The notes under the pieces: generated by a model
Databases searched by the model: none
The model's input: the letters and a program-made list of their open reading frames with translations, nothing else
Told to the model about the DNA's origin: nothing
Translations under genes and position numbers: made by a program
Shown: positions 71 to 21,897 of the stretch, in pieces
Layout of the letters: the number at the start of each line of letters is the position of its first letter
Position numbering within the stretch: the first letter of the stretch is position 1
DNA from: a virus
Virus record (IMG/VR): IMGVR_UViG_3300038723_000057
Span: 1-21,897 of that record
Length of the DNA: 21,897 bases
Strand: one strand, 5' to 3'

Positions 71-2065
71 TTATTCTCTCCGTTCTGCTTCAGTTTCAGT
101 GTCTGGCTCTGGTTGTGTCTGGATACCAAAGAATCCTGCCAGCCCTCCGGGGATCTCTTCCATTAGCTCTTGGTTGACGATGTCCACTGAGCCTGTAGAC
201 AACACAAAGGCTTGCTTGATCTGGTTAGGCGTGAACTTTGTGAGTTCCTTATTGCCCCCGTAGTCAGCTAGTCTGATGATAGTGTCCAAGTTTCCATTAA
301 GACGCCGGACATCTTTGGCTATTCCTGAAGGGATATTGTCCTTGACAATGATAGGGCTACGATCCGCTTTAATACTAGCGATCTCTATACGTCCTGTTTC
401 TGCGTCGTAGACCGCTGTGAATCCCTCTGGTTTCTTACGTCCAAGGGACAGGATAGTTTTAGCCTGTTGCATAAGGGGAGTATTCGGTTCCATCCTGCGG
501 GCATTAGTGATGAAGGCGTCGGCATTAGCGTCCCTTAGGGCAGCTCCGATAACTTCCACATCTTTATCATTAGCCCTCAGTGTCTCCAAAGCAGCAAGGT
601 TGAACTCAGTGGATAGACGTTCAACACCTGTAGCTTTATCTCTAGGATTAGGAGTATCCTGTGTCATCTGAATAAGGCTAGATGTGATATTCTTAAACGA
701 TTCCTTTTGCTGGCCTTGAATAGCTGTAGGCGTCCTGTTCATGGCTTCTAGTGCTGCAAATCCATTACGGGCTACAGCAGGGCGTTCCTCGGAGGACAGG
801 TCAGCAGAGGTGCTAGTGCCATCCATGATGCTATTCATTCTATCCATCTGGCTAGTAATGAGCCGCACAACATCCTCATCTAGCTGTTGGGATACCTCTG
901 TGCTAGCATTCTTGGCAGTGACAACTACCGCATTGACGGCGTCTCGTCCACCAAGATCGCTAAGCCTTGCGATAGTTGGTGAGGCCCGACGGATATCCGA
1001 CTTTCCTCGGGCTTCCATGGCGCGTAGAGAGTCTTCGATGTCCTCAAAGTTGCCTTGGATAGCGTTGGTAGTGGACTCGAATACTCCTGTAGCTTGTTTA
1101 ATCATGTCTTCACGAGTGGTGTTACTCACTCCTGCCTCAATAGCCGCGTCGTTGACAATTGATTCGACTAGCAGCCTCCGCTGCCTAGTGTCTTCTAGCA
1201 GCAGGCGCTGGAATTCTTCCGTAGATTGCCCCTCTGTTGGTCCTTGACGCAGTAGTTTAATGCTGTTGAATTGTCCTTCTAGGACACTATCAATGAGCGG
1301 AGTGACAGCCTGCTGGAAGTTACCAAACTCGATGCGTTTAACTTCTGCTTCAGTCAGCTTACGCGCCTTATCTCCCTCGGCCAGCATCTTTTGCATCTGA
1401 ATCTGTTGCTTCAGACCGTTGATACGTGCTTCCTCTTGTAGAAGCTCTTGACCTCTGGCCGCTGTGGCTTCAATATCAATACCGCCTCGGCCATCGGGGA
1501 TGGCTATACCGTATTTATCTACTGATACATCGACAAATGACTGCGTAATCTCACGTTGTTGATCTAGCTCGTGTTGTATTTGTTCTTGTTCTGCTGCCAA
1601 GATTTCCTGAGTAGGAACAACTCCTAGAACATTACGAGCCAGCTTCCTATACGCTTCAGCGTTAACAGGGTCTTGGGAGATATACCGCTGGGTAATAGAA
1701 GCTAGACGTGTGTTCATTTCAGTCTGGCTCATACGTCCTTGCTGGAACGATTGGCGCAGCCTATCTATGTCTTCTCCCGCTTGACGTACAACTCCACCGG
1801 GGATAGGAGTATCGGCGATTAAAGACAGCTCTCCTACTAGCTCTGCCTCAAGATCTGAGGTGTTAGCTAGTAATTTTTCATTAGGCTTTTCAGTCCTAGC
1901 TCCGGATGAAAGGATATCTAGGATATTTGAAACACCGTCAATGGCGGTAGAAGCTACAGCTACGCCTGATCCGGGCACTGTGGGCCCGCCTACTCCTCTG
2001 CCTCCCGGCTCACTGAGTACAGGTTGAAAGGTGCCTTGTCCCTTTTGTTCATTAAATGTGGGCAT
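71..2065 (-). CDS. Probable internal virion / DNA-ejection protein, 664 aa
   Basis: Product not recognised by a specific motif. The start is a Gly/Pro-rich, probably disordered stretch (about residues 1-40). It is followed by a long hydrophilic, mostly helical-looking region rich in Glu, Gln, Arg and Ala, with heptad-like segments around residues 150-250 (EQEQIQHELDQQREITQ is typical). The C-terminus is acidic and Pro/Thr-rich. There is no signal peptide, clear membrane segment or catalytic motif. Its ATG overlaps the stop of the 1593-residue gene as TAATG, so the two are probably translated in a fixed ratio. By position after the gp14-like and giant proteins, it is best read as the third member of the internal virion set. 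T7 gp15 (about 750 residues) is the nearest functional analogue, but the T7 order is 14-15-16 and here the giant protein comes second. The alternative is a tail-associated structural protein. Confidence 0.55.
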   Translation of the reverse strand: MPTFNEQKGQGTFQPVLSEPGGRGVGGPTVPGSGVAVASTAIDGVSNILDILSSGARTEKPNEKLLANTSDLEAELVGELSLIADTPIPGGVVRQAGEDIDRLRQSFQQGRMSQTEMNTRLASITQRYISQDPVNAEAYRKLARNVLGVVPTQEILAAEQEQIQHELDQQREITQSFVDVSVDKYGIAIPDGRGGIDIEATAARGQELLQEEARINGLKQQIQMQKMLAEGDKARKLTEAEVKRIEFGNFQQAVTPLIDSVLEGQFNSIKLLRQGPTEGQSTEEFQRLLLEDTRQRRLLVESIVNDAAIEAGVSNTTREDMIKQATGVFESTTNAIQGNFEDIEDSLRAMEARGKSDIRRASPTIARLSDLGGRDAVNAVVVTAKNASTEVSQQLDEDVVRLITSQMDRMNSIMDGTSTSADLSSEERPAVARNGFAALEAMNRTPTAIQGQQKESFKNITSSLIQMTQDTPNPRDKATGVERLSTEFNLAALETLRANDKDVEVIGAALRDANADAFITNARRMEPNTPLMQQAKTILSLGRKKPEGFTAVYDAETGRIEIASIKADRSPIIVKDNIPSGIAKDVRRLNGNLDTIIRLADYGGNKELTKFTPNQIKQAFVLSTGSVDIVNQELMEEIPGGLAGFFGIQTQPEPDTETEAERRE

Positions 2066-5000
2066 TATTCTTGATCTTGCTCCTCTCTAAACCTGTCTGA
2101 CGTGGGGACTCTTGAGATGTCCTTGCCCAGTGTTTTCTGCATATCTCTTAGTATTTTCTCGAACTCGTTGCCTGCGTAGCCCATTTCGTTGGAAACAAAC
2201 TTAGCGATTTGTTGGCGCAGCAGGGGGTCGTCCTGAAACGAGGCGAATAACAGGGCTACCTGTCTCTTGTGTTGCTCGTGTACCTTTGTGTCCCCATTCA
2301 CCAGTGCTTCAATTGCCTGTCGTTCTATCTTAGCGATGAGCTGACCGTACACACGTACCTCATCCCGTCTATCTTGGATTCGGTTGTAGTATTCAAAGCG
2401 CTTGGACTCTTCCCAAAGAGGGACACCCAGAACTGCCGCACCAGCCTCTAACTCTGTAGCATCGAATAAAGGACGCCCAGTCTTAGGATTGATTACTTTG
2501 CTGAGGCGCATTATGGTGAGGGCTTTATCGGCTCGTTTTAGAGAAGCGATGTGTTTAGTGACTAGTTCGTTAAATACGAATTTAGCGTCTTGAGCGTCTA
2601 CATCCAGAGGCCCTCTTGTTCCTTTGAGGTAGATAGCCACCCTGTTAAAGCTTTCAGCGTAGTTGCTAGCGAAGGAATACGCCGGACCCCCTAGAGCTTC
2701 TGTAAACGAGTACAGCTCTCCATTAGCCATGCGTTGCAGTGTGTAATCTAGACCTCGGCCAAAGCCAGCCCGTTCAGCGAAGTCAGTATTCAGATCTCCC
2801 CCGCTGATAGCGTACAGAATAGAATCAATAGCTCCGCTCTCGATAGCCTTAGTCACCTCGAATGAGGGCTCCTGACCTGTAGCATCCACGATCATATCAT
2901 GAGCCAGATCGCTGATACGCTGACCAAAGGGAAGGCCCTTAGAGCCGTACAGAAGCACCTGTGCGCCCAACATAGAAGCCTTCTGAGTGCCGCTGAAAGC
3001 GTCGCTACCTCCTAACTGTTTGGGCAGAATAGCCTCTAGGAGACGCATCTGGTAGCTCAGGAAGCGTGTTGTGGAGCTGAATACGCCACTTTGTATTTTA
3101 CTGTTGTTGGCTGCTGTCATATTGATAGAGAAGTCTGAGGTTCTCTTGTTGACGCGGGCCTTGAACTCGGCGGAATCCACAGCTAGTTTAGGGAAATCCG
3201 CCCTAGTTTCCTTCCATGCGATCTGGTAGGCCACCATCCGGTTCCATCTCTCCGCTTCGTTAAAAAACATACGAGAGCCTTCTCTGGCCTTCTGGATTCT
3301 CCAGCCTGCTCCCGCTGCTCCGACAGAGTTGGAGTGGTTATCTAGGTAAGCCAGTTCCCCTCCCGGTTTATTCCAAGCGCTTTCCCGGAATGTGCGTATC
3401 ATCTCCTTGAAGTCCGAGGGTTCTTGCCCGTGGATAACTTTGGCTTTCTGTGCAATGTAGTCTAGCAGATTATCCGATTTATTAATAGTCAACCACCGCA
3501 TAGGAAGGAACATTCCAACAGCGCTAGCCCCGTACTTCGGAGAGGCGGAGACAGCTGTACCAATGGTCTGGGCCTGAACAAACAGCTGAGATACATCGAA
3601 GAAACCCAGCCACGCATCAAACATAAGGGCGTTGATAGCGTTGATGGGATTGCCAGACTGGATATCGTCCAGCTTAGCTACCAGTTTAGTTCCTAGATCA
3701 CCCCCTTTAGCCTCGACCATACGGGCTAGGTTACGCTTAGCGGCTTCGAATCTTTCTTGTGTAGGAGTTTTTAAGCCTAGCTGACGCTTAATAAGGACAC
3801 GGTTCTCTGTGAGCTTATCGTAGATGCCGGGCTCTTTGACCCGTAGCTGAGGATCGAGAACACCGTTGTAGAAGACATGGCGTGCATCAGACTGGTTGCC
3901 CAGCGTCTCCCTCTGGATGAAGGGAGCGGCGTTACGAACCCATTCTTCAACGCTGCGGTTGATGTAGTGATCCCACGCATGGGTACGTGCGGCGTACTGA
4001 ACGGCTTTAGAGATACTGGCCAAGGGGTCAAGAGTTACATCCTTAGTCTCGTCGGGAGTCAGAAGCCCTTTAGTCCTCTTGCCGTAGAAATCTCTGCCTG
4101 TGTTGAACATCCATTGGACCTGTCCATCCAGATCTTCAGCGGGGTTGTTAGTGAATAGGTCTACTACGTCATCACCAGTACGTTGGCTGGAGTCGAAGTA
4201 GAAACTAGGCACACCCCTGTCGAACACCGCCTCGTAAGGATGGTCGAGGCTAATCTCCCCCTCATCTACCATACGAGCAATGTTATCTAGCCCTTCAAAC
4301 GGAGTACGTTCTAGCTCTGTTTGAGCTAAGATCTTAATCTTGGCGTTATTGACAGAAGGGAATGGTGTCCTATTTGCAAGGTAATCCTTGTAGATGTCGA
4401 TGCCTTCGTTAATCTCGTCCACCCACTTCTGCGCTTGTCCTTCTGTACGGAAGGTAGCGGTGGTCCTAGGGCCTTTAACCCACTTGGTTCCATCCTTGTA
4501 GGAGCCAGTCTGAGCCTGTTTAGCGAACCACTTGGTTCTGCGTAACAACGGTCCACCGGGTACGTAGTTAAGCTGGACACGATTAAGAGGTTTAACATCA
4601 GCACTGCGTGAAGGGACCAGCATAGTGTCGACTGGATCACCTTCAATCACGTTGGATTCTTTAAGGCGCAGAACTTTGTAGTCCCCACTAGTGAGCTTGC
4701 GTGTTAAATCTGCTATCTCTTCAGGACTAGTGTCCCCTTTGCCTGTCCTGACTATCTTGTCTTCGACATCATACAGTCTAGTTTTGGCGATGCTTTCGGG
4801 AGACATTTTCAGCTCGTAAGCAGTAGCATTGCGGATATCAATGTTAGCTGTTTTGTCTACAATGTCTACAGTTTTAGCCCCACGTCGAGCTTCTGACGAG
4901 TACACGGCGTTATTGAACACGTCCCATGTGAAGTCACTCAGCTGCTTAGAGGCTGCATAGGCTGTGAAGTCTAATTCTGTGGGATCTTTACCCGTGATCT

Positions 5001-6846
5001 TCTTCCACTCAATAGCGAACTCATCCAGCTGGTACCAACGGCGTTCATTACGTCCTTTGGTCATCAGAGTTTCGAGAGATTTAAGATTCTTTTTACCGAT
5101 CTTGCGTATATCTTTAGCGAGCGGAGTAGCTACTTGCCGAATGACATCGAACTCCGTAATCTCTGAATCCTGTAGGCGGGTAGCGAGATCTTCAGGAAGA
5201 GATAGCTTAGGGTTTTGAATAGCTGTGCGAACAGGACCAGTACCCGGAATAGTGTCTAGGCTATTGTCTGGACGTGTAATCAGTGGTCGTCCATCGGGAG
5301 TGAGCTCCTCTACTACATCTGTAGTCTTAATGAAGAAGCGGCCACTGTCCTCAGCTACATCTGCTGAATCAAAGCCACGACGTACAGCAGCAGACTGAGC
5401 AGCTAGCTTAGTAGCGTACCCTCCTCCTCCCTTCTTGCCGATGAAGGTTTCAATGTTGGTGATGCCTGTGACGGGATCAGTTATCTGTTTGAAATCCTCA
5501 ATGTCCAGACCTTCTTTGTTCTGCTTGATCTCTACTAGTTTCTTGTCTACTAGCTCCTGAAGCTGGTCAGCACTAAGCCTGCCTTGCGTAATGATTCCTC
5601 TATGGGCTTGCCCAATCTGCTCAATCTCATCTAGCTTAGCTGCGAGGGTGCCGCTAATACCGATACTAGGATCAAGATCCTCAAGAGCTGACTTAGAGCG
5701 CAATCCCGTCGGCATAAGGTCTTTAACAGACTGGATACCCTCTTCCGTTATGTCCGCAGAAGCCTCTCCTTCTCTCCTGAGCGTCTTATACAAGGCATCT
5801 GCGTCGATAGTAGCAGCAGTACGCCGCGCTCCTGCGGCCTTTGCTGCACCTGCTAGACTTCTTGTGCCTCCTACAGCCGCTTTAATAAACGGAGCTACTA
5901 CAATCAGGGAGTCCAGTGCGCTGACTGCGTCTGTGAAGATGACGTTAGTCTGTCCTATTGTGCCATTACGATATTCATTAAGGGCTTGTAGCGTAGCTTG
6001 TTCGTTGACGCCGAACACACCGGACTGATTGCGGGCACGTTCGAACAATTCCACTACAGCTTGATCGAATTCCTCTATATCTTTACTCCAGAATCCTTCA
6101 ATCTGGTCCTTAATAGTCAAGCCGGGCCTGATCTGGTTCAAACCCTGTCTATCTACATCCTCGTCAGGATTGACATTTAGTCGAGATTGCTGGTCGTAGA
6201 AAGGCAACAGGAACATGGCTGCGAAATCACGAGTATTCTCAATCAGCTTTTCATCCCTAGCACGCGATCTTACTTCCGCAAGGTAGGCGTCCAAGTGTCT
6301 CTGGTAGATGAGTGTCTTGGCTGTTTCGTCCCGTAGTTTATCTATAGTAGACCCGGTATCCTCGGCAAACCCTAGCCGCTGGGCAGCGCCAAAGGCTTCG
6401 TCGTCGATCATCTCTGTGTTCTGTAGCTTCTCGACTGACAGTTTCTCTAGAGCGTGGTAGTCAGGGTCCATCTCAGCAGACATCTCTTGCAGAGAGGGGT
6501 TTATTTCTAGGTCGATAAGGGATGCAGCTTCTTCGACGTTGTCCTGCCCTACAGCCTCTAGCTGGAGTTCTTGTAGAGCGGCATTACGTCGGCGTTGTTG
6601 CTTGATCTTTGCCCGATTCCTAAGGGAGACCTCGTCACCTAGACGAATAATCTCTTGATTTAAAGAGGAGGCTTGATCGAATGAGGCGTTGGCTTCGTCT
6701 AGCTCCAGTAGCGCGGACATATCCGCTGTCAGCTTTACCTGTTCATCAGATTGCAGCACCGGACCAGCCGGAGCCTGCTCTTCGAATATTTCTTCTACCG
6801 GGGTAAACTCGGCTTCCTCAGTGAAGATTGTATCTTGGTCAGCCAT
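2065..6846 (-). CDS. Giant internal virion protein (gp16-like DNA ejection protein), 1593 aa
   Basis: The largest gene in the window. The N-terminal part (about residues 1-130) is acidic and helical. The middle is a mix of helical and alpha/beta segments. The C-terminal third (from about residue 1080) has hydrophobic helices, including GFFDVSQLFVQAQTIGTAVS near residue 1080, and the stretch FFNEAERWNRMVAYQIAWKE near residue 1195. From memory, that E-(A/G)-E-R-x-N-R-x-x-A-Y pattern recurs in giant internal virion proteins of marine podoviruses. T7 gp16 (1318 residues) is ejected into the cell and lines the periplasmic channel for DNA; a similar role is inferred from size, position and hydrophobic helices. 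I could not see the lytic transglycosylase domain that begins T7 gp16, so peptidoglycan-cutting activity is not claimed. It is coupled on both sides by TAATG overlaps. Confidence 0.65.
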   Translation of the reverse strand: MADQDTIFTEEAEFTPVEEIFEEQAPAGPVLQSDEQVKLTADMSALLELDEANASFDQASSLNQEIIRLGDEVSLRNRAKIKQQRRRNAALQELQLEAVGQDNVEEAASLIDLEINPSLQEMSAEMDPDYHALEKLSVEKLQNTEMIDDEAFGAAQRLGFAEDTGSTIDKLRDETAKTLIYQRHLDAYLAEVRSRARDEKLIENTRDFAAMFLLPFYDQQSRLNVNPDEDVDRQGLNQIRPGLTIKDQIEGFWSKDIEEFDQAVVELFERARNQSGVFGVNEQATLQALNEYRNGTIGQTNVIFTDAVSALDSLIVVAPFIKAAVGGTRSLAGAAKAAGARRTAATIDADALYKTLRREGEASADITEEGIQSVKDLMPTGLRSKSALEDLDPSIGISGTLAAKLDEIEQIGQAHRGIITQGRLSADQLQELVDKKLVEIKQNKEGLDIEDFKQITDPVTGITNIETFIGKKGGGGYATKLAAQSAAVRRGFDSADVAEDSGRFFIKTTDVVEELTPDGRPLITRPDNSLDTIPGTGPVRTAIQNPKLSLPEDLATRLQDSEITEFDVIRQVATPLAKDIRKIGKKNLKSLETLMTKGRNERRWYQLDEFAIEWKKITGKDPTELDFTAYAASKQLSDFTWDVFNNAVYSSEARRGAKTVDIVDKTANIDIRNATAYELKMSPESIAKTRLYDVEDKIVRTGKGDTSPEEIADLTRKLTSGDYKVLRLKESNVIEGDPVDTMLVPSRSADVKPLNRVQLNYVPGGPLLRRTKWFAKQAQTGSYKDGTKWVKGPRTTATFRTEGQAQKWVDEINEGIDIYKDYLANRTPFPSVNNAKIKILAQTELERTPFEGLDNIARMVDEGEISLDHPYEAVFDRGVPSFYFDSSQRTGDDVVDLFTNNPAEDLDGQVQWMFNTGRDFYGKRTKGLLTPDETKDVTLDPLASISKAVQYAARTHAWDHYINRSVEEWVRNAAPFIQRETLGNQSDARHVFYNGVLDPQLRVKEPGIYDKLTENRVLIKRQLGLKTPTQERFEAAKRNLARMVEAKGGDLGTKLVAKLDDIQSGNPINAINALMFDAWLGFFDVSQLFVQAQTIGTAVSASPKYGASAVGMFLPMRWLTINKSDNLLDYIAQKAKVIHGQEPSDFKEMIRTFRESAWNKPGGELAYLDNHSNSVGAAGAGWRIQKAREGSRMFFNEAERWNRMVAYQIAWKETRADFPKLAVDSAEFKARVNKRTSDFSINMTAANNSKIQSGVFSSTTRFLSYQMRLLEAILPKQLGGSDAFSGTQKASMLGAQVLLYGSKGLPFGQRISDLAHDMIVDATGQEPSFEVTKAIESGAIDSILYAISGGDLNTDFAERAGFGRGLDYTLQRMANGELYSFTEALGGPAYSFASNYAESFNRVAIYLKGTRGPLDVDAQDAKFVFNELVTKHIASLKRADKALTIMRLSKVINPKTGRPLFDATELEAGAAVLGVPLWEESKRFEYYNRIQDRRDEVRVYGQLIAKIERQAIEALVNGDTKVHEQHKRQVALLFASFQDDPLLRQQIAKFVSNEMGYAGNEFEKILRDMQKTLGKDISRVPTSDRFREEQDQE

Positions 6847-7358
6847 TAAGGATTAACTCTCACCGTTTGTTCAATTGCGGCGTTTGCTGCTGAAGCTTGG
6901 CCCTGTGCCTGCCCGAAGGATGCTATCGATTGGCCAAGACCAGCAAAAGACTGGCCCAATTGTCCGATAAGAGCCGCTCTATTTGCTTGCAACTGGGCAT
7001 TACTAATGGTAGCAGCATTGCGGTTAGATGTAGCGATAAAGCCCAAGTTAGCCTGAAGCTGGGTGCCAATGGAAGCTTGTGCTCCTTGAGCGCCTGAGGA
7101 TGTAGCAGCTCCCTGAGCTTCAGCTTGCTGAGCGATCTCTGCCCGACGGATACGCGCCTCTCTGATAGCCTGTAGGCGTGCTCTTGCTTGCTCTAGCTCT
7201 TCTTGACCACGCCGGGCTCTTTCTGCTCTCTTTGCAGCCTTGGTTCCTTGGATGGAAGATGCAACTGAGACGCCTGTACCGATGACAGCAGCTGCAAGTG
7301 CGATAATAGGAAAGATGCCTGCCTCGTCTTCCCAGAACTCTTTTAGAAGTTTAAACAT
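6846..7358 (-). CDS. Small internal virion protein (gp14-like), 170 aa
   Basis: A short, Ala/Gln-rich protein with one probable membrane helix near residues 15-35 (IFPIIALAAAVIGTGVSVAS). A basic and acidic coiled coil follows at about residues 40-75 (KAAKRAERARRGQEELEQAR), then low-complexity Ala/Gln/Ser repeats to the end. This membrane helix plus coiled coil plus AQ-rich layout and the length fit T7 gp14 (196 residues), which is ejected first and forms the outer-membrane part of the ejection channel. The position directly after the nozzle and before the giant virion protein is the same as in T7. Its start is decided by a strong Shine-Dalgarno, AGGAGG five bases before ATG, which lies inside the last codons of the nozzle gene. 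Both gene ends overlap neighbours as TAATG. Confidence 0.68.
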   Translation of the reverse strand: MFKLLKEFWEDEAGIFPIIALAAAVIGTGVSVASSIQGTKAAKRAERARRGQEELEQARARLQAIREARIRRAEIAQQAEAQGAATSSGAQGAQASIGTQLQANLGFIATSNRNAATISNAQLQANRAALIGQLGQSFAGLGQSIASFGQAQGQASAANAAIEQTVRVNP

Positions 7359-10300
7359 TAGAACCTCCTATTCTTTGCTGACCATACAGCCCATCCATAT
7401 AGTTCAAAATCTTTCTCGGTTTCACTTGTGAAATGCAGTTGTAAAGACCTGCCTCTGCCGCGTGTCTTATTGCGGGACACCACCAGAGGTAGTCCTGTAG
7501 TTTCTGGATTATCTGGGTCAGTCACGAACTGTACACGTCCATCCCTGTAAGCTTGAAGAGATGGACCCAGTTTCCCTGATGCTGTGTTGTTAGCCCAATC
7601 CCACCTTGTTTGAAGGAAGCAGCTTGATTCGTAGTCAATAGTTTTAATTTCCGGGGTGTACGATCCGAAGTCGTAGACTGCTAAGCCCTTGATGCCTGTG
7701 GCCTCAGTGTTGGCTATGACCGTAACATTGTTGTTTGTTCGGTTCCAGTACACACTGGCGTGGATAGCTACGTGAGTAGCAGGAAGATCTGTAGGATTGG
7801 TCCATACCTGCCCCTTCAAGAAGTCTATTTGTCTAGCTTCCCCTTCCCCGTTATTTCCTTGGGGATCCCACACAAAAACTCTGATGCCCATCTTGTCTTG
7901 GTCTCCGCTAGCCCTGTAGATACGTGGCCAGAATAAGAACCATAATCCTAACGGGTCATCTTTGTTCAAAGGAAAGGCTGAGGGGTTGCAGTAGTAATTG
8001 TCTAGAGCTGTACTCGCTGTTCCGTCGAATTCCTCTTTATCGTCGTCAAACGGAAACAAGGAATTAGTCCCACCAAAATCAGAGAATGTTGTGTTCTCGG
8101 TTCTGACTGCGCCAGCTGTGCCGCTGACCCCGAAATTGCCTGCTCCGGGAGTGATGTTCAAACGGGCGCTGGAGATAAGTCCTGTCATGAACGTGGGAGA
8201 CACTGCGTCGAGGTAGGTACTTGTTATTGTCTCTGTCCCTGCGTCATGCGCCTCAAGATCTGAGGTGTAGAACATGGAAAAGAACTTGCTATTGTTGTCT
8301 TTGATCGGCAGGAAGAATCCTCTAGAGCCTCCTCTGAATGTGGTGTCTAGATTATTGTCGGTAACTGCTAAGGTGTTCCCATCGAATGCGCCGGTATTAG
8401 CTAGACTGATTTCCTTAGCCAGCCAAGGAGATGAACCACTTTCTAAGATAGGCGTGTTATTGATCACGAAATTGATAGAAGGCAGTATCAGAACAGTGGA
8501 GCGTGTCTCAGCGAAGTAAGACACAACCAAGGGATGCTTGTATTCGTAAGAGCTGTTGTTGGTAGCCGCATCTGGATGCAGTGTGGAGACGTCTACAGGA
8601 CTGTCAGTGATAATATGGCCCATACCTGAGAACGCTTCAGAGCCATTCTCAGGACTACCCTGTACGTTCAGTCCATCTGTGCGACAGGCGTAGCCACCCA
8701 TGAGGGTCATCGACGTAGCGCTATTCACCCGGTAGTACATGAAGTACTTGTCCGAAGATACACCAGCAGCACTGCCTAGGATAATGACAAAGTACGCTGT
8801 GCCGGGTACCACAAAGTAGGATACACTGTGGTTGAAGTAATTAGTGCTTACAAACCCTCCGGGGGGAATAATTAGGGCCGCCTGTGCGTCGGCGTTGTAG
8901 TCCTCATTCGAGCGCGTCAGATCAGGGAGGGCAGCACCAGTGTCTATGTTGTAGAACTCAGTGTTAGCCCTATTGGTGATAGCCGTGGGCATGATACGCG
9001 TACCGTCAACAGCTACCAGCATGGCCGCGTTAGGCGGCAGGGCTGGCATATTGTTGGGTGTCGTAGTTTGGTTGTAGTTGATAAACGTGGGATCGAATAC
9101 AAACCCGCTATTGCCTACCTGATCCAGAGTAACACGTTGCTGGCCTAGGGTCAGAAGGTCTTCTTCAGTCCTTCGGAAATAAGTGTAAACATAGGGAGCC
9201 TTCATGAATGACATATAGTCATCAGCAAGGTGGTAGAAGGTAGTAATGCTGGACGAGTAATCGAACCCATCATTACCGCTGCCATCATCCTCAGCTGGGA
9301 AATCCCTGAAGCACAGATTTTCAAAAGCGGAGTATGTTCGATAGCCGTTAGACAATGTCCATACTTTAAGTTGTGTGGCGATATTCTCTTCTTGCTCAGA
9401 GATAATAGTGACATTCTGGATATTAGAATCTGTGATGACTACTGAGCTAGAGTCAACTACATTCTCAGATGAAAATACAGTGGATATTCCACCTGCTATA
9501 GAGGCTCCGATGATCCTGTGAGTGCTAGTATTGTTAACAGAGTAAGGGAAGAAGGCGCTATATTTAAGGGAGAAGTTAAGGAATTTATCGTACTGAAATC
9601 GTTGTTTGGACAGATCAGACTGTGCTGTACCTGCGTACAACCAGTGGATAGTTTTGCTATCTGGTTCGTAGACACCCTTAGCGGTGCGCTTAGAAGACTG
9701 AGGGATGTTATTGTAGAACTCAGTGATCCTATTCTCCGTCATGTCGTTGACTTGGAGAATAGCTCTAATCTCTCCGGGCTGGATCACGTAGATACCGTGG
9801 TCGCCCCAGAAGAACAGGAGACCTTCAGCGCGTACAATGGACTGGCTGTTAAGTATCTTAATGTTCGAGATGCTAGTGATGCTGAAGTCTACTGCGCTGA
9901 ATCCTGTGCCTTCAGGGCCAGAAACAGTCCAGATACCATTGTCTGAAAACACGACAAGCGTAGTCTCCAGTACAGCTAGTGCCGTACCTCGGCCCATGTC
10001 AGGGATACTGATAACCCCCCCATCAGTGGCGACAATGTCTGACTCGCCTTCGCTGGTAGGATCGCCCTCTTGGTAGCACCGACCAGCTTTAGTGAGTGTA
10101 TCAGCATCTAGAAGCTGGGAGAAATACAGTTTATTCTTTAGCAGGTACCACGCTCTGCCTGCGAAGAAAGCCGTAGAAACCGGACGTTCACTCTCTGTCT
10201 CCACATCTAGCGAGTTAAGGTTGGCTAGGAAGTGATTGATGGTCAGATCGAATTCATCTCTTACAGCTTGTGCTCTGTCTTTGTTGAAAGCATTAAGGAT

Positions 10301-15208: not shown

Positions 15209-17014
15209 TTAGATTGGCTGGTCAGCGGGTGTAATTCCGGGAGGTGTAGCTGTCTGTGCTTCCGTTTGCTCTTGGGCTTGCAGAGCCAGAGCTTGCGTTT
15301 CTTGTTGTTCGAATATCCTGACATTCTTGCTGAACACTTGGAATTCGTCAAGATCAGATAATTCTTCAATCAGCTTAGCGATCTTCTCACCTGACAAATG
15401 TACAAGTACTTGCTGATCCTGAACAAGAGATGTGTTCATAAGGGACACAATATTCTGTAGCGTGTTAGCCCGTTGTGCAAAGTGTGAAGCACCACGGGGA
15501 CGTAGCTGCCCCGAGGCTGTGATGTCTTCCTTAGTCACTTCACTGAACAGGACAGCATCAACTTCAGTATCAACAGTCCGGATTACATCTGTAGCCTGCA
15601 TGTTCTGGCGAGCCACAGCCAACATGTCATTCAACAAAGGTTGTAGGAATACCTTTTCGAAGTGCTTAACTTTGTTTAAGAACAACCGGCTGGCGGCGTT
15701 ATCCAATTGCTGTACTTCAAACTTAGTCTTCTCACCCGGAGACCGGATGCCCATAGCTTCCCTAGGAGCACCAGCTAATTCCTCCATGCGTCTTTCCAGT
15801 TCTTGGATCTGGATATCTGCATTCAAAGCAGTGGCGTCCGGGCGCATAAACTCTACATCGCCGTCATCTCCGATATAAACTTTAGCTCCGGGCTGGTAGT
15901 CAAAGTCTTCTACAAAACCTCTAATCTTCATCACAGGGAAGGCGATGAAGTCGAAGACATCTGCCTTGAGATTCTCTAGATGGTCGATGCGGTATTGCAT
16001 GCCTACTAGATTGTCTAGTGGGCCCATAGCGTAGAGGTTATCGGGACGAATACGCCAGCCTGCGTGGTGGAACATGGGCTTAGTTGTCCACCGGGCTAGG
16101 GGCTCCTTACGGGTAATGTGCGCTCTATCGAACACCTCTATGGTGTAATTCTCTAGAAGCTCTTCGGAATTAATGTCGTAGAAATCCCCATGGAATTGCA
16201 GGATCTCCACATAGTGTGATTCTAAGTAATTACTATAGGAGGAGAACCCATCCACATTGAAAGCCTCTTGGCGGAACTGATCTTCAGCAGTGAATGTGTG
16301 GGTAACGCCTCGAAGGAAACTGCGTGCCTCTAGCACTTTCTCTAGTTTCTTTCGATACTCGTCCGTCTCGGGAAGATTGTTAATCTTCTTCTGTAGTTCC
16401 CCTATGGTAATGAGGCTCCGGATTATTTTCGGTGCGTCTTCGAACTTCGCGGCCAAAGGATTGAAAACCATATCCAGCATACTAATACGAACGATGCGAG
16501 GACCGACGTAGCCCCGAACAACTTCTCCTGTGTCCGGGTTTTCAAATGATTCGTCCACCCACTCAACCGTTGCAAAACAGTTTCCGTTGTCGATATAATC
16601 CAGTAGAAGCTGGGAAAGAGTAACCTCTGCGTTATCTTGCTCAAGCTTTGTTCTAATGTAGCTCTGAATCGCTGTACGTTTGCTCTTAACTTCATCTTCT
16701 TGACCAGCCCCTTCCCACGTCAGCCAGTTTTTCTGGGGGAACAAAGCAAACATGTAGTTGGCATGAAGGTTGTCCCTGATTTGCGTGAGCTTAGGGACTG
16801 TAGTGCTGTTCTTCCAAGGGAGACGCTTATTGCTAGTGGTAGCAGTGTCTGTAGCGAACAGGTAATTACGTAGCTCTTCTTTCTCGATCAGCCAGCGGGA
16901 TCTAAACTCAGACCACTCGTCGTATTGTGTAGCGATTGCGACTGCTAGACGATCAGGGGGGAGTAGTCCTGCTGCGCCAAAGAAGTCATCTATGTCAAGC
17001 GTCTTGCCGACCAT
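15209..17014 (-). CDS. Portal protein (head-tail connector), 601 aa
   Basis: A ring of twelve copies at one capsid vertex; it initiates head assembly, serves as the gate for DNA packaging and binds the adaptor. Recognised from the N-terminal half: WKNSTTVPKLTQIRDNLHAN near residue 68, then YMFALFPQKNWLTWEG, the segment ELLENYTIEVFDRAHI, and MFHHAGWRIRPDNLYAMGPL near residue 314 with the following DNLVGMQYRIDHLENLKAD. This W-RIRPDNL-x-A-M-GPL-DNLVGMQYR-x-D-H-L-E-N-x-K pattern is characteristic of podoviral portals. The C-terminal third is helical (MEELAGAPREAMGI; KHFEKVFLQPLLNDMLAVAR). The final 30 residues are Gln/Ala/Thr-rich and probably disordered. Length is near T7 gp8 (about 535) with extra C-terminal residues. 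It lies upstream of scaffold and capsid, the usual order. Confidence 0.88.
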   Translation of the reverse strand: MVGKTLDIDDFFGAAGLLPPDRLAVAIATQYDEWSEFRSRWLIEKEELRNYLFATDTATTSNKRLPWKNSTTVPKLTQIRDNLHANYMFALFPQKNWLTWEGAGQEDEVKSKRTAIQSYIRTKLEQDNAEVTLSQLLLDYIDNGNCFATVEWVDESFENPDTGEVVRGYVGPRIVRISMLDMVFNPLAAKFEDAPKIIRSLITIGELQKKINNLPETDEYRKKLEKVLEARSFLRGVTHTFTAEDQFRQEAFNVDGFSSYSNYLESHYVEILQFHGDFYDINSEELLENYTIEVFDRAHITRKEPLARWTTKPMFHHAGWRIRPDNLYAMGPLDNLVGMQYRIDHLENLKADVFDFIAFPVMKIRGFVEDFDYQPGAKVYIGDDGDVEFMRPDATALNADIQIQELERRMEELAGAPREAMGIRSPGEKTKFEVQQLDNAASRLFLNKVKHFEKVFLQPLLNDMLAVARQNMQATDVIRTVDTEVDAVLFSEVTKEDITASGQLRPRGASHFAQRANTLQNIVSLMNTSLVQDQQVLVHLSGEKIAKLIEELSDLDEFQVFSKNVRIFEQQETQALALQAQEQTEAQTATPPGITPADQPI

Positions 17015-17017
17015 ATA

Positions 17018-17197
17018 TTAGTCGTCCTTAATCTTGTTGCAGAAATAGTGTCCTTCGGAAAATGGATCTTCTATCTTGGCACTCTCCAATAGAACTTCTC
17101 CGAGTTCTTTACAAGAGACATCTTCCGGAACAAGTCCTACTTCTGAGAACACTTGTCCGTTGCTGAAAAAGATTACTAACGTGATTAGTTCAATCAT
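17018..17197 (-). CDS. Small Cys-containing protein between fibre and portal, 59 aa
   Basis: ATG at 17197 starts seven bases after the fibre-gene stop; the TAA ends three bases before the portal ATG. This exact fit and a purine-rich site (AAAGG) upstream make it a credible gene. The protein begins MIELITLVIFFSNGQVFSEV, a short hydrophobic stretch that could be a weak signal or membrane anchor, and continues with an acidic segment containing two Cys (residues 29 and 53) and a charged end. It loosely resembles small phage proteins with a hydrophobic start and paired Cys whose function is unknown. No homologue can be named. A fibre chaperone or membrane role would be speculation. Confidence 0.6.
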   Translation of the reverse strand: MIELITLVIFFSNGQVFSEVGLVPEDVSCKELGEVLLESAKIEDPFSEGHYFCNKIKDD

Positions 17198-17203
17198 TGA
17201 TGT

Positions 17204-18250
17204 TTACCTTTGGAAGTAGATGCCGATGCCAAACGCACCAAGGTTGGCTGTAGTTGAGATAGTGTCAGAAGTGTTAATGTCTGTAACCTGCATCTCAGCA
17301 ATAGCGTTGACACCACCGTTAGAGAATCCGTAGTTGCCCCATACAGCTGATGTGAAGGAAAGGTTTGCTGGGTCTGTGCCGACACCGTTAGTACGCCCGA
17401 CCATCACGCACACCCTGTCACCAGAAGTGACAGTTAGGGGGGAAGTGAGATCAAACTTCTGGTTCAAGGAGAAGATGTCAGACAAAGTAACAATCGATGA
17501 CTTCTGGATTGACTGCACTACGTTTGATCCGTTGAGAATCATAGCGTAGCCTCGGTATTGCGCACTGGCCACATTGGGGTCAATGGTGCCCACTAGAGAG
17601 GTAATGGTGATGTCTTCTCGTGCGATAAAGATATTGCCCCGGTGAGCGTTGCCCGCGCTGTTGTTACCACCGGTAGGACCGGGGGAGTAGATAGCGCCCC
17701 CACCGCCTAATTCGGCGAGAGTCTGCGCGGTGACGAACTTAGGGTTGCTGCTATCACTGGTGTCTTTAACGGGAACAAGGTCATCGCTAGCAGGAGTAAC
17801 AGTGGCTTCACTGCCGCTGAATAAACCGTCATCTCCTTGCGGACCAGTGGGACCAGTAGGGCCAGTGGGACCGATGAGAGAGGTAGGACCAGTACCTGTC
17901 CAAGTGCCAGCTGCCTTTGGCCCCCAGATAGTGTTGTTAGTTGTGTCTAGGTAGAAGTCCCCATCAATACCATCGCCATCAGCAGGAACTCCTGACCCAT
18001 TGATAATCTTATTGAACAGGGAACTGTTCTTTGTTTGGGCTAGCGTTACTGGTTCTTGGTCTTGCGAAGCGTTAGGAAGGTTCAAGATCCTGTTGCTATT
18101 CATGTCTAGGTCGGCTCCCATAGAGTTAGGAGTCGTTCCATCCCTAGACAGGGTATTCTCCATAGCCGTCTCAATCGCATCAAAGTTCGCGTTGAGAGTA
18201 GTTATGGAGGCAAACTTGGAAAGGATATTTGATAGTGTTAGTTTAGCCAT
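17204..18250 (-). CDS. Tail fibre with collagen-like repeat, 348 aa
   Basis: N-terminal module (about residues 1-70) of a type common in phage fibres: TLNANFDAIETAMENTLSRD, then a stretch with ADLDMNSNRILNLPNA, which probably attaches to the tail. It is followed by GDFYLDTTNNTIWGPKAAGTW (97-117, here shown for the motif around Tyr100-Trp109), a segment that usually precedes collagen repeats. The repeat GPTGPTGPTGPQGDDG is at 127-142 and would form a short triple helix. The C-terminal part (about 200-348) is beta-rich and Ser/Thr/Gly/Asn-rich, probably the trimeric receptor-binding tip. Its ATG overlaps the GH16 gene stop as TAATG, tying its expression to the enzyme. Receptor specificity cannot be read from the sequence. 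Confidence 0.75.
   Translation of the reverse strand: MAKLTLSNILSKFASITTLNANFDAIETAMENTLSRDGTTPNSMGADLDMNSNRILNLPNASQDQEPVTLAQTKNSSLFNKIINGSGVPADGDGIDGDFYLDTTNNTIWGPKAAGTWTGTGPTSLIGPTGPTGPTGPQGDDGLFSGSEATVTPASDDLVPVKDTSDSSNPKFVTAQTLAELGGGGAIYSPGPTGGNNSAGNAHRGNIFIAREDITITSLVGTIDPNVASAQYRGYAMILNGSNVVQSIQKSSIVTLSDIFSLNQKFDLTSPLTVTSGDRVCVMVGRTNGVGTDPANLSFTSAVWGNYGFSNGGVNAIAEMQVTDINTSDTISTTANLGAFGIGIYFQR
17825..17872 (-). repeat. Collagen-like Gly-Pro-Thr coding repeat
   Basis: In-frame nine-base repeats encoding GPT/GPT/GPT/GPQ/GDD inside the tail fibre gene. Each near-identical unit reads like GGACCAGTG on the opposite strand. Such repeats are prone to length change by slippage, which can alter fibre length between related phages. 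Confidence 0.7.
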
Positions 18251-19443
18251 TAAAGCATTGCCCTAGCTTCTACGAAATCTACTTCCATCTCTACTGGAAA
18301 ATCATCAGGATCAATAGCGGGTGTACCGGGATTCCAAGTACCCACTTGGTGGGACAGGATCATGTAGCCGTGGATATCAGAGACATCGGACACTGCTAGA
18401 TCAGCACCGGGAATATACTCATGATCTACAAAGAACCTCAATCTCCCCGGCTCCCACAGCACGCTGTAGATGTGCCAGTCTTCTGTACTGTCTACTGGAG
18501 TGAAGTGGCTTCGTTGGTTCCAGCTTTCTCCTCCAGCACCATAGCCACCCCAATGAGCAGCACTATGTCCTTGCAGTCCGTCCCATTCCCCTAGTATCTC
18601 GATGACGTCTATCTCTTGCGCACCACCTGTGATGTCTGCTACACCGGATACGAAGTCCTCTTGCACAAACAACTGCTGGCCATCCTTATCGGAGGGAACG
18701 GTAACTGTATCTACTTCTAGATCGATCTTACCGAAGGTGATCTTAAGGGATCGGCGGTATTCATCTTTAATGTGAAAGTTGACAGTAGAGCTAGCAGCGC
18801 TTAACTGCTCATTAACATACGCTGTAACATCTACCGTGACTACTTCACCCTGAGCAAACGGAGTAGCAGAATCTCTCCACACTGAAGCCATGTAGACAGG
18901 ATTGTTTGGCTCGTATACAGCAAAGTGCTGACCGCCTGCTCCGAAGTTCTGAGCATCATCTACAGTGAACTTGAGAACTGCTGAAGCCACTGGGTGAGTG
19001 AATCCACTGATATCGTAAGTCACATCAGCCATGTGATGCTTGGCAGGGTTGCCGTAGTCTCCACGGTCTGGCATCATCCAGAATGCAGGCCAACTGTGAG
19101 GCCGCGCTGTGTGCCTGATTCTTGCGGAGAAATAACCGTAGCGCTGTCTAAACCTGCGCCATGTGGAGATCTCAGAAGACACATAATCCCCAGTCTTTCC
19201 TAGGGAACTTGACCCCGGTTGATTGCGTGCTTCGATTTTCAACACGCTATTGTCGATTGAAATAGTAGAAGGATCATTGACACCATCTACATTAAAATTA
19301 GCTGTATGCTGTCCTACTTTCCATTTGGTATTGTCTAGGACAGGATCATTAAAATCCTCGAAGAAAGTAATAGGCCAATTATGTACCCCGTCTAGGATAT
19401 CTTCTTGCTGTGCATTCAGTATTAATGTAGTGTTGTTGACCAC
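18250..19443 (-). CDS. GH16-family glycoside hydrolase (probable virion depolymerase) with nested domain, 397 aa
   Basis: Family 16 enzymes cut beta-1,3 or beta-1,4 bonds in laminarin, agar, porphyran, carrageenan or related glycans. Residue numbers are from GTG 19443. Early strands show FFEDFNDPVLDNTKW (27-41) and YGYFSARIRHT (102-112), followed by SWPAFWMMPD (117-126). The catalytic motif EIDVIE (277-282) matches the family signature E-x-D-x-x-E with nucleophile, helper Asp and acid/base all present. HWGGYG and WHIYSVLWEPGRLRFFVDHE follow as in the family. Normally only about 15-20 residues separate FWMMPD from EIDVIE; here about 150 do, so a second domain is nested there. GTG 19443 is chosen because GGGGAG lies four bases upstream and it overlaps the previous stop as TAGTG; GTG 19455 is an alternative with no clear ribosome site. 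No signal peptide, so virion-borne action is inferred. Confidence 0.82.
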   Translation of the reverse strand: MVNNTTLILNAQQEDILDGVHNWPITFFEDFNDPVLDNTKWKVGQHTANFNVDGVNDPSTISIDNSVLKIEARNQPGSSSLGKTGDYVSSEISTWRRFRQRYGYFSARIRHTARPHSWPAFWMMPDRGDYGNPAKHHMADVTYDISGFTHPVASAVLKFTVDDAQNFGAGGQHFAVYEPNNPVYMASVWRDSATPFAQGEVVTVDVTAYVNEQLSAASSTVNFHIKDEYRRSLKITFGKIDLEVDTVTVPSDKDGQQLFVQEDFVSGVADITGGAQEIDVIEILGEWDGLQGHSAAHWGGYGAGGESWNQRSHFTPVDSTEDWHIYSVLWEPGRLRFFVDHEYIPGADLAVSDVSDIHGYMILSHQVGTWNPGTPAIDPDDFPVEMEVDFVEARAML

Positions 19444-20174
19444 TAAACTCCCCACTTAGTCGATAAATAGTTGTAGATATTCGCCTTCTCACTCGAGCTA
19501 ACCAGCTTGGAGTAGATAAGAATCTCTCCAATAGCTCCGTCTAAATCCTGACTGCCTGCCCGGTTGGTGAATAGCCGGATAGTCTGGGGAGTAGTCAGTG
19601 TCGCTGTAAACCCCGTATCACTGTCATGGGACGCTTGGCCGTATTCAAGATCGAGATTCCCTCCTGCTCCATCAGCTAATACAGCGTAGATGTCTGGTCC
19701 TGCCACTGCCGAAGCTCCGGGTCCACCGTTAGTTCCAAGCCCGGACTGGTTGAAGCGGAATCGAAATTGTGAAGCGTTGCCTGCGTCTATCTGGAAATCG
19801 TTAACATCGTCCATCGCTAGGAGACTGTCCTGTGCGTTGTTAACGGTGTCAACCACAGCGACGATGAAGATAGAGAAATTAGGGCTCATAACAACCCCAG
19901 TAGTGGACAGCATGTTTGATCCGTTAGCGTCAATAACGTTCAAACTGTTCAAGGTACGTGTACCCGAAGAAGGGCGATCACCACCTGATGCGATTACGTG
20001 GTTGTTGTTACCACTCTTATCATCCCACTGGTTGACTAAATTGCCCGCTGTGTTGATGGTGGAAGCATCTGATGCGTCGTACCAAGCAGCCAAGTTGGAG
20101 ATATTTGAAGGAGAGAAGTCTCCTATCTTCTGGCGCTGGTTCAAAGAGAGCTGTAAAGAAAGACCTAGTGACAT
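19443..20174 (-). CDS. Concanavalin A/LamG-like lectin domain protein, 243 aa
   Basis: A stand-alone jelly-roll lectin-type domain. After a short N-terminus (MSLGLSLQLSLNQRQKI) comes ISNLAAWYDASDASTI (25-40) and QWDDKSGNNNHVIASGGDRP (49-68), the classic opening of this family (LxxWxDASD...W.DKSGNGN). It closes with IGEILIYSKLVSSSEKANIY and NYLSTKWGV, again diagnostic (GEI-x-IY...L-x-x-x-Y-L-x-x-KWG). Such domains bind glycans and are common at the tips of phage fibres and in secreted glycan-degrading enzymes. No catalytic motif or transmembrane segment is visible. Next to the GH16 gene (stop overlaps its GTG), it may supply substrate binding to the enzyme or act as a separate adhesin. Whether it is a virion component is inferred. 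Confidence 0.72.
   Translation of the reverse strand: MSLGLSLQLSLNQRQKIGDFSPSNISNLAAWYDASDASTINTAGNLVNQWDDKSGNNNHVIASGGDRPSSGTRTLNSLNVIDANGSNMLSTTGVVMSPNFSIFIVAVVDTVNNAQDSLLAMDDVNDFQIDAGNASQFRFRFNQSGLGTNGGPGASAVAGPDIYAVLADGAGGNLDLEYGQASHDSDTGFTATLTTPQTIRLFTNRAGSQDLDGAIGEILIYSKLVSSSEKANIYNYLSTKWGV
19448..19453 (-). promoter_or_regulatory. Shine-Dalgarno deciding the GH16 start
   Basis: Minus-strand GGGGAG lies four bases before GTG 19443. The same spacing is used at the ATG at 20482. Because this site lies inside the coding stretch that would follow GTG 19455, it favours the downstream GTG, which also forms a TAGTG overlap with the previous stop. Confidence 0.6.
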
Positions 20175-20176
20175 TG

Positions 20177-20482
20177 TTAAGCGTCGATTACTGCTACTTT
20201 ATCGTTAGGGTTAAGACCAATGTCTCGTGTCTGCCCATCTAGAATAAGGTACCCAGACCCTGCAACAGCTGTCGGAGTTTCTCCATGGTCTACGTAGACA
20301 TTGCCCCCTGTTACGGTAATCTGAGCTACTGTGCCCGGTGAAGCAAAGCTAGCATTAGCAGCAGCCGTAGTAGCTGCGGATGTGCCGGATGAAGTGATGT
20401 TTTCTTGAGCTAGCTTAATCAGGACAGGAGTATCGCCCCCTTGGCGAAGCCTTGTCCCGAAAACGATATTAACTGTAGCCAT
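20177..20482 (-). CDS. Small virion-associated protein of unknown function, 101 aa
   Basis: A compact beta-rich protein. A Thr/Ser/Ala-rich first half (ITSSGTSAATTAAANASFAS) precedes a conserved-looking second half with VAQITVTGGNVYVDHGETPT, then AVAGSGYLILDGQTRDIGL and DKVAVIDA. From memory, GNVYVAxGxxPTAxAxxGxLxxAGxTxxxxxxxGDKVAVID-type domains occur in short proteins near the tail or capsid genes of many phages, without a proven function. The start is decided by AGGAGG four bases before the ATG. It opens the fibre/lectin/GH16 cassette and probably encodes a structural or fibre-attachment component. The reading frame stays open for 63 codons upstream of this ATG but without a normal start codon there. 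Confidence 0.6.
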   Translation of the reverse strand: MATVNIVFGTRLRQGGDTPVLIKLAQENITSSGTSAATTAAANASFASPGTVAQITVTGGNVYVDHGETPTAVAGSGYLILDGQTRDIGLNPNDKVAVIDA

Positions 20483-20609
20483 TGATCCTCCTACTTGTAT
20501 AAAGGCTAGTGTCGCTCGCAGCGCATTAGGTATGTGGTTGGTTAGTTTATTCTCAGATTGAGTATAAGCTGCTGCAAGCGCCTGCTTACAAAAGTCAACA
20601 GCTTGTTGT
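20483..20609 (-). other. Apparent intergenic stretch, 127 bases, with a possible promoter
   Basis: The only stretch above 100 bases without an ATG-initiated gene. On the minus strand TATACT (20566-20561) resembles a sigma-70 -10 box. TTGTAA (20591-20586), 19 bases upstream, and TTGACT (20598-20593), 26 bases upstream, are poorly spaced -35 candidates, so a host-type promoter for the fibre cassette is only weakly supported. An imperfect 12-base palindrome (GCAGGCGCTTGC) lies near 20575-20587, with no U-tract after it, so no terminator is called. The same stretch is open in the frame of the downstream gene. Confidence 0.25.
20487..20492 (-). promoter_or_regulatory. Shine-Dalgarno of the 101-residue protein
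   Basis: Minus-strand AGGAGG, four bases before the ATG at 20482. It marks this ATG as a genuine initiation site even though the frame is open further upstream. Confidence 0.75.
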
Positions 20610-20726
20610 TTAGACGGTGTCGAGAAAGCTATTAAGGCTAGTAATCTCCGTCTGTACCTGTGGCGATAGCGTCAGGATGTCCTGTAGCGCCGTCGCAATA
20701 GCCTGTAGCTTTTGAAGAAAAGTCAT
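20610..20726 (-). CDS. Small helical protein coupled to the terminase, 38 aa
   Basis: ATG at 20726 overlaps the terminase stop as TAATG, the junction type used six times in this window, which supports it as a translated ORF. The peptide reads MTFLQKLQAIATALQDILTL and goes on with SPQVQTEITSLNSFLDTV: an amphipathic, heptad-like helix followed by a second one. No known function and no membrane segment. From codon 34 (TTT followed by C, a shift-prone UUU-C context) a +1 shift would lead into a frame that is open through to the 101-residue gene. It could be a short regulatory or structural peptide, or the start of a longer product. Confidence 0.45.
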   Translation of the reverse strand: MTFLQKLQAIATALQDILTLSPQVQTEITSLNSFLDTV

Positions 20727-21897
20727 TAGATACTTACCCCTCCGAATCTATTGTGGAATGGAAGATCCATCCCTTGTTTCTTTTTCGTATTTAGTTTATT
20801 TCCAGCGTTCCCCGGTGGGACGCACACATCAACACAAGAGGCCAGCGCGTCTTTCACATCATCATGTGCTGGTTCAACCTGTGTCAATTCTTCTTCGAGA
20901 ATCTGGATGTTGCCCCCTTCGTAGTGCCATACCATTTGATTCTCGTACCGCGGCTTGAGGATGGCGTCTATGCGCTCTTGCTTCGTTCCATCATGGCGCG
21001 TTGGCTTATGAACATCAACTGAGAGCATAAGGCCATTAGCTCGGATGTATTGATGCTTGAGCTCATCAACAATAGCCGCCTGAGCTGCGGTAGCTTCAGC
21101 TCGAAGCTTTCGAAATCCCCAAGTGTAGTATGCCTTTTCAATGTACCTATAATACTCTGAGATCGACTTCGTCTTAAATCGCTTGATATCAAGGATATAG
21201 ATGTTGCGCTCATAATCAATTCCTGCTACTACTAGAGCGGTAAAGTCTGCTCGCTTAGATGTGCTATAGGCAAAGTCAATAGAAGCGTAGACGTTAATCT
21301 TCCGGTTTTTTACAAACCACTGGCCACTCCAGCGCTCTAGGTGCTTTTTGTCGTAGTATTGGAAAAGGTCACGACTGATTGCTTCCCCTTCGGCCACATT
21401 TGGGTTATTGTAATACTGCGCGTAGAATTGTCTTTTGTCAAGGTATAGAGCGCGTTTTCGTGCCAGAATGCCACGATCGAATCCAAACCATTTACCATCG
21501 TACCTTTGCTGACGAGGCCAGAGGTATTCACCTGTACCGTCGCCGGTGGACTCAACTTGTCTTTCGAAGACTTCGTAAACAGCCTCCGTATCAGTGACAT
21601 TACCTTCGTTATCATAGATATCTTCCTCTGCATCAATCATATCGAAGTAGAGATCTTCGGGGTGGTACCTAGTGCCTACGACCCATTCCTTGCCGTTAGC
21701 TCCCACGACAGAATTAAGGAGGGAGTATTGACGTCTAACTTTATCGCGTCCTTCTTTAGTATAGGCATTCTCAAACACCACGAGATCATCGTATACAGCG
21801 ATATCACAGTGAAGACCAGTGAGCGAAGTAGTAAGGCCCCCCGTGAATACCGTTGCATCTCGGATGCCTTCACGCTTCCGGATCGTGACTGGGAAAC
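20726..21897 (-). CDS. Terminase large subunit, C-terminal part (5' end outside window)
   Basis: The motor ATPase and nuclease that threads DNA through the portal and cuts it. The frame is open to the edge, so about 389 residues are present and the Walker A region is missing. Near the edge GGLTTSLTGLHCDIAVYDDL shows the Walker B strand with its acidic pair. The coupling motif appears as KEWVVGTRYHPEDLYF. The RNase H-like nuclease domain begins with NVYASIDFAYSTSKRAD, whose Asp (codon near 21277) is a metal ligand; RAEATAAQAA supplies a candidate second acid and AHDDVKDALA near the C-terminus the third. A GTG at 21781 is internal, since the Walker B Asp codons lie upstream in the same frame. 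The downstream neighbour overlaps as TAATG. Unlike in T7, the portal does not follow directly. Confidence 0.88.
   Translation of the reverse strand, partial: FPVTIRKREGIRDATVFTGGLTTSLTGLHCDIAVYDDLVVFENAYTKEGRDKVRRQYSLLNSVVGANGKEWVVGTRYHPEDLYFDMIDAEEDIYDNEGNVTDTEAVYEVFERQVESTGDGTGEYLWPRQQRYDGKWFGFDRGILARKRALYLDKRQFYAQYYNNPNVAEGEAISRDLFQYYDKKHLERWSGQWFVKNRKINVYASIDFAYSTSKRADFTALVVAGIDYERNIYILDIKRFKTKSISEYYRYIEKAYYTWGFRKLRAEATAAQAAIVDELKHQYIRANGLMLSVDVHKPTRHDGTKQERIDAILKPRYENQMVWHYEGGNIQILEEELTQVEPAHDDVKDALASCVDVCVPPGNAGNKLNTKKKQGMDLPFHNRFGGVSI

Follow-up and report, generated by a model that had tools for sequence, protein, structure and literature searches.

A phage GH16 gene belonging to a rare bacterial enzyme family with a CBM96 domain nested in the catalytic fold

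A gene in the phage DNA analyzed here (the window, i.e., the whole 21,897-nucleotide stretch of IMG/VR record IMGVR_UViG_3300038723_000057) turns out to belong to a rare bacterial enzyme family in which a CBM96 domain is nested within the GH16 catalytic domain. The nesting and the homology to CBM96 are evident in this family, a circular permutation of the nested domain is evident in its cellular members, and the nested proteins form one clade on the tree. The gene is predicted to encode a retaining endo-glycanase of family GH16 whose fold is of the laminarinase type, and a CBM96-family β-sandwich is nested in this fold between the strand WPAFWMM and the catalytic strand EIDVIE. As the nested domain is a circular permutant its new ends adjoin, so it could be spliced into one GH16 loop. 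We consider it probable that a GH16 with a nested domain of this permuted family originated by one insertion in a cellular ancestor, that a phage took up a descendant later, and that the phage enzyme acts as a depolymerase.

The gene is a 401-codon ORF on the minus strand (window 18250-19455), and one unbroken frame holds both FWMMPDRG and EIDVIE (Table 1). Its likely start is the GTG at 19443, where the sequence TAGTG overlaps the upstream stop and GGGGAG lies just 5', giving a product of 397 amino acids; residues are numbered throughout as in the 401-amino acid version (ORF open to the GTG at 19455). Pfam Glyco_hydro_16 matches the protein with 57.8 bits, the curated cut-off being 22, and the match is broken into two parts with a sub-threshold CBM96 match between them. 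The ExDxxE (β-bulge) catalytic motif is present, and its residues E281, D283 and E286 are invariant across all nested members; from what is known of the family, E281 would be the nucleophile and E286 the acid/base. In the window protein, 154 residues separate WPAFW from the first catalytic glutamic acid, E281; across 109 other bacterial and phage GH16 domains the corresponding stretch measures 8-35 residues (median 15). A first-pass annotation, made from the sequence by itself, had reported about 150 residues between FWMMPD and EIDVIE where about 15-20 are normal, and the measurements agree with it, equally long spacing not being found among these relatives. The insert, which it had located at 18622-19059, comprises residues 133-277 (18625-19059). 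A frameshift or assembly artefact is ruled out by the single open frame and by the same arrangement in eleven bacterial genomes or MAGs.

Table 1. Coordinates in the window of the GH16 gene, its parts and the neighboring genes.
Feature	Position	Strand	Basis
Terminase large subunit, truncated where the window ends; one cassette border	20726..21895	-	PHROG, homology to Cobavirinae
Small cassette gene of no assigned function	20177..20482	-	ORF; PHROG and Pfam searched
Upstream cassette gene, virion structural protein-like; stop overlaps GH16 start	19443..20174	-	PHROG 10356, 11772
GH16 gene with nested CBM96-like domain	18250..19443	-	ORF, start analysis, Pfam Glyco_hydro_16 (57.8 bits)
GH16 N-terminal half, residues 27-132, with strand WPAFWMM and PDRG at its end	19060..19377	-	Alignment, AF2
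Nested insert, residues 133-277	18625..19059	-	Spacing, HMM, AF2
Insert core, residues 141-249, corresponding to the CBM96 profile from about 38 on; W.E..TWNNKP hairpin mostly gone	18709..19035	-	Pfam, alignment
Putative degenerate remnant of permuted strip (ordinary CBM96 N-terminus), residues 250-270	18646..18708	-	Alignment, cellular strips, low pLDDT
GH16 C-terminal half, residues 278-398	18262..18624	-	Alignment, AF2
Catalytic motif EIDVIE (E281, D283, E286)	18598..18615	-	Invariant in nested members
Downstream cassette gene: tail fibre, conserved N-terminal anchor, collagen-like GPT repeats	17204..18250	-	PHROG tail fibre
Portal; other cassette border	15209..17014	-	PHROG, related contigs

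An AF2 model obtained with an alignment of 37 rows (the window protein, two nested relatives and 34 insert-free GH16s) had a pTM of 0.78 and a mean pLDDT of 79.6. It includes GH16 strands before (121-129) and after (280-288) the insert, which has separate strands of its own between 143 and 264; the joints at 134-141 and 263-270 are of low confidence. The closest Foldseek matches in the PDB were the laminarinases 3AZX, 4DFS, 6JHJ and 4CRQ, with a TM-score to target of about 0.7-0.82 for most (maximum 0.82), and a carrageenase and other solved GH16s matched as well. Since these alignments have about 395 columns on targets of 230-264 residues, the insert is spanned as a gap. The pTM and the Foldseek matches together identify the β-jelly-roll fold of GH16. 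When AF2 was given the single sequence, the model was of no use for the GH16 part (mean pLDDT 38), and confidence was limited to the insert (residues about 141-250, pLDDT 60-81). The matches of this second model included latent TGF-β prodomains and the CBMs 8WAB and 7VBO, with scores that were modest because most of the model is unfolded; Dali matches to TGF-β family domains have been described for CBM96 too (PMC9971899). According to the models, the GH16 fold of the window protein is intact and of the laminarinase type, and a β-rich domain stands apart from it, in line with the second domain and the intact flanking strands proposed at first reading. That the insert is merely a lengthened GH16 loop is hardly credible. 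The low confidence of both linkers and the size of the phage insert, 145 residues as opposed to 174-197 in the eleven cellular members, would fit such a loop, but the insert folds by itself in the single-sequence model, is distinct in the 37-row model, matches CBM structures and has 11 relatives that are unambiguous CBM96 domains, and the loop was rejected.

A scan of genome contigs detected 440 GH16 relatives, and 80 of them were retained. Collinear alignment with the window protein right through the insert was seen for the best two, one from Hyalangium versicolor (L009, E 2e-49) and the other from a Bacteroidetes MAG (L010, E 1e-40). A profile built from the three proteins and run on about 1900 genomes yielded nine further intact nested members, six from Verrucomicrobiota, two from Planctomycetota and one from Gammaproteobacteria, the group in each case being that of the named centre genome used for the search. 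The total is eleven intact bacterial nested proteins from five large groups, several of which bear extra domains (Golvesin_C, LTD, T9SS tail). L010 was the sole nested member among 396 Bacteroidota genomes, and none was detected in 337 genomes of Alphaproteobacteria, a search run without a positive control. A broken nested GH16, in two frames and with part of the insert missing, was also observed in a second myxobacterial genome (G099; L115, 596-2118). The Bacteroidetes gene (L010, 4908-7127) is followed by a GH94-type gene, which would fit β-glucan use.

The arrangement, initially taken to be peculiar to a phage enzyme, is common to the eleven bacterial ones, and phage-specific novelty was rejected. 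On the viral side, among GH16s with both motifs readable the insert is absent from every one other than the window; the insert alone as query found no relatives in viral contigs, and tblastn of the insert or of the whole protein against annotated phage records gave no match. In a small viral contig (L005, 1-1623) the start of a GH16 is apparently fused in frame to terminase-like sequence, which may be a chimeric assembly. Structure matches in BFVD (A0A481Z684 and A0A481Z290) are a GH16 of Pithovirus LCPAC202 and a protein of Pithovirus LCPAC101 named CBM96.

All 11 cellular nested domains match CBM96 (PF24517) with 86-109 bits, above the cut-off of 26, and the profile of the nested family matches 7VBO at E 1e-19. 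This structure is that of TM6-N4 from the alginate lyase Dp0100, the founder of CBM96 (PMC9971899), to which the nested domains are related as homologous β-sandwiches. The window insert scores 17.6-21.7 bits against PF24517, under the cut-off (20.6 bits and E 4e-4 for the insert alone), and the permuted strip of the phage insert has no Pfam match; its membership thus depends on the cellular relatives. Compared with an HMM of the 11 cellular inserts, the insert alone scores 46.3 bits, the best of 1000 shuffles reaching 7.9, and through these intermediates it is homologous to bona fide CBM96 domains. The comparisons support an insert of the CBM96/DNRLRE type. The first-pass annotation had noted this resemblance, which the HMM score upholds; the Pfam search that it proposed does find CBM96, with a score that stays below threshold.

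The cellular nested domains depart from the ordinary order of CBM96, profile positions 1 to 164; all 11 have about 38-163 followed by about 4-38. The inserts of L009 and L010 begin with a part that corresponds to positions 38/41-163 of the CBM96 profile and finish with one that corresponds to 4/5-37/38, and the strips of the other nine match positions of about 4-38 alone, the weakest being L145 (E 0.057). Searched as a single sequence against the PDB, the Hyalangium insert matches best the DNRLRE-domain chondroitin sulfate-binding CBM 8WAB, also found by the fold search with the window model. Phmmer aligned the two in swapped pieces, residues 3-131 of the query with 56-186 of the chain (38 bits) and 132-165 with 17-51 (5.8 bits, weak alone), whereas 8WAB itself has the ordinary order, 17-51 before 56-186. 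An independent HMM, built on six ordinary CBM96 domains that the Hyalangium genome encodes, matched every one of the eleven inserts first at 38-45 to 158 and next at 10-14 to 39, with an identical cut point. Taken singly, the short second matches are weak (E 2e-4 to 0.85), yet each insert has one at the expected place. In the reverse test, an HMM of the strip matched ahead of the core in ordinary CBM96 domains (L105 at E 1.4e-5, and more weakly L103 and L106). These profile alignments demonstrate that the nested CBM96 is circularly permuted in all eleven cellular members, a feature absent from the earlier reader's account. Plain insertion of an unpermuted CBM96 was rejected because every cellular member has the swapped order and one cut point.

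A tree of 108 rows was built from GH16 columns only, the presence of the insert not being used. All 12 nested proteins, that of the window among them, fall into a single clade (support 99/94), and the insert amounts to one change in 100% of 200 bootstrap trees. The clade lies within a larger supported group (100/98), to which insert-free enzymes sharing the flanks MPDRG...GGMEIDIME belong too. In the nearest of these, the sister clade (L011, L012, L013, L021 and others), the flanks at the insertion point are the same and the site is empty, with about 19-27 residues from WPAFW to the catalytic glutamic acid versus 154 in the window. Since the nested proteins and the window make one clade beside an insert-free sister, one insertion is enough, and the sequences are most simply accounted for if it took place once, in a cellular ancestor. 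Within the nested clade the window branches off first; its branch is long (1.33), and because of this its exact position there is unsure. Branching first would also fit an insertion that arose in a phage and then spread to bacteria, a history we regard as very unlikely given the length of that branch, the complete CBM96 of the cellular members as opposed to the eroded phage copy, the cellular nature of the insert-free sister clade, and the absence of the insert from any other phage GH16 with readable motifs. We infer a transfer from bacteria to phage. Composition is uninformative on this point, since the G+C content of the cassette that holds the gene (48-51%) is like that of the window (48.6%).

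Aligned with the eleven cellular domains, the phage copy is a shortened, diverged relative of them. It has lost the W.E..TWNN part of a W-rich hairpin and, from the RPxLVI strand, the RP; the permuted strip is mostly gone too. The core sandwich G...TVDVTAYV is retained. The alginate groove of TM6-N4 includes K10, K22, K25, K27, K31 and R36 in the N-terminal part and Y159 near the C-terminus (PMC9971899); the segments lost by the phage copy are equivalent to those in which the majority of known CBM96 binding residues lie. Lysine is not abundant in the cellular strips either, so alginate would be no obvious ligand of the nested family. In the cellular members the nested module probably grips a polysaccharide while the GH16 domain cuts it, and by homology the phage insert may be a binding module. 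It is nevertheless quite possible that the phage domain no longer binds glycan and is instead a structural spacer or a docking surface for the tail fibre or virion. The missing W.E..TWNNKP hairpin, the absence of the greater part of the strip that corresponds to the K10-R36 part of TM6-N4 (PMC9971899) and the location of the gene in a tail-fibre cassette would suggest this; on the other hand, the core sandwich is kept, and CBM binding sites can shift. A broader idea, that permutation enabled the nesting and fixed a GH16 lineage with rigidly joined binding and cutting surfaces, the phage module now reading a receptor or docking to the virion, we hold to be unlikely.

With respect to CBM96 as described so far, the family presented here differs in being nested in a catalytic domain rather than appended to it and in being permuted, and the phage copy differs further in its score below the cut-off and its lack of most of the strip matching K10-R36. 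The laminarinases 3AZX, 4DFS, 6JHJ and 4CRQ resemble the window protein in fold and in the ExDxxE motif and have no nested domain, insert-free GH16s having 8-35 residues between the motifs. GH16 genes in phage genomes are represented by the laminarinases described as auxiliary metabolic genes in PMC11126160 and by the loci L003, L004 and L089-L102; unlike the window, these loci have no insert where the motifs are readable. In a literature search of partial coverage, CBM96 and GH16 were found together in only one paper, there on separate enzymes, and no example was found of a glycoside hydrolase with a naturally permuted CBM nested in it; the domain types are known, and their nested and permuted combination appears to be undescribed. 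CBMs are normally arranged as beads on a string beside the enzyme. A CBM that is inside the catalytic domain, permuted, adjacent in sequence to the catalytic strand and kept across phyla suggests that binding and cutting may be geometrically coupled. The sister enzymes with an empty site, the full nested enzymes and the eroded phage version constitute a natural experiment, and annotation that relies on ordinary domain order can overlook such a nested module.

The window phage is of a marine type. Its terminase is 53-59% identical to those of Cobavirinae, including Roseobacter phage SIO1, Lentibacter phage ICBM1, Celeribacter phage P12053L, CRP-5 and others, and its terminase, portal, capsid and tail genes are related to and collinear with those of Zobellviridae/Cobavirinae. 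In most related contigs with both genes, terminase and portal are neighbors, the gap between them often being under 100 bases. The window has a 3.7-kb cassette of four genes (17015-20725) in that place, namely a tail fibre, a virion-protein-like gene that had no Pfam match, the GH16 gene and a small gene. The N-terminus of the tail fibre is mostly 40-70% identical to the fibres of relatives, in which this anchor is found at two different genome positions, other than its place in the window; the repeats have the sequence GPTGPTGPTGP. A tail-fibre cassette between terminase and portal suggests, by its position, a host-recognition cassette, and favors a depolymerase of the virion or lysate over a secreted digestive enzyme. 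Judged by inspection of the sequence, with no predictor, the N-terminus of the phage form has no visible hydrophobic signal peptide. The protein is thus most likely, from its place beside the tail fibre, a depolymerase carried on the virion or freed at lysis; the gene position points to virion association, and such an enzyme would open a layer of β-glucan-like or other exopolysaccharide. It seems rather unlikely that the gene is instead an auxiliary metabolic gene assisting its host in the digestion of algal laminarin. Seventeen phage GH16 laminarinases around kelp have been reported as genes of that kind (PMC11126160), and laminarinases are the closest matches of the window GH16, but both the cassette and the N-terminal sequence speak against it. 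A contig from another sample (L150, IMGVR_UViG_3300038531_000060, 217-9839), which ends just short of the cassette, encodes proteins 99.9-100% identical to those of the window from the portal onward.
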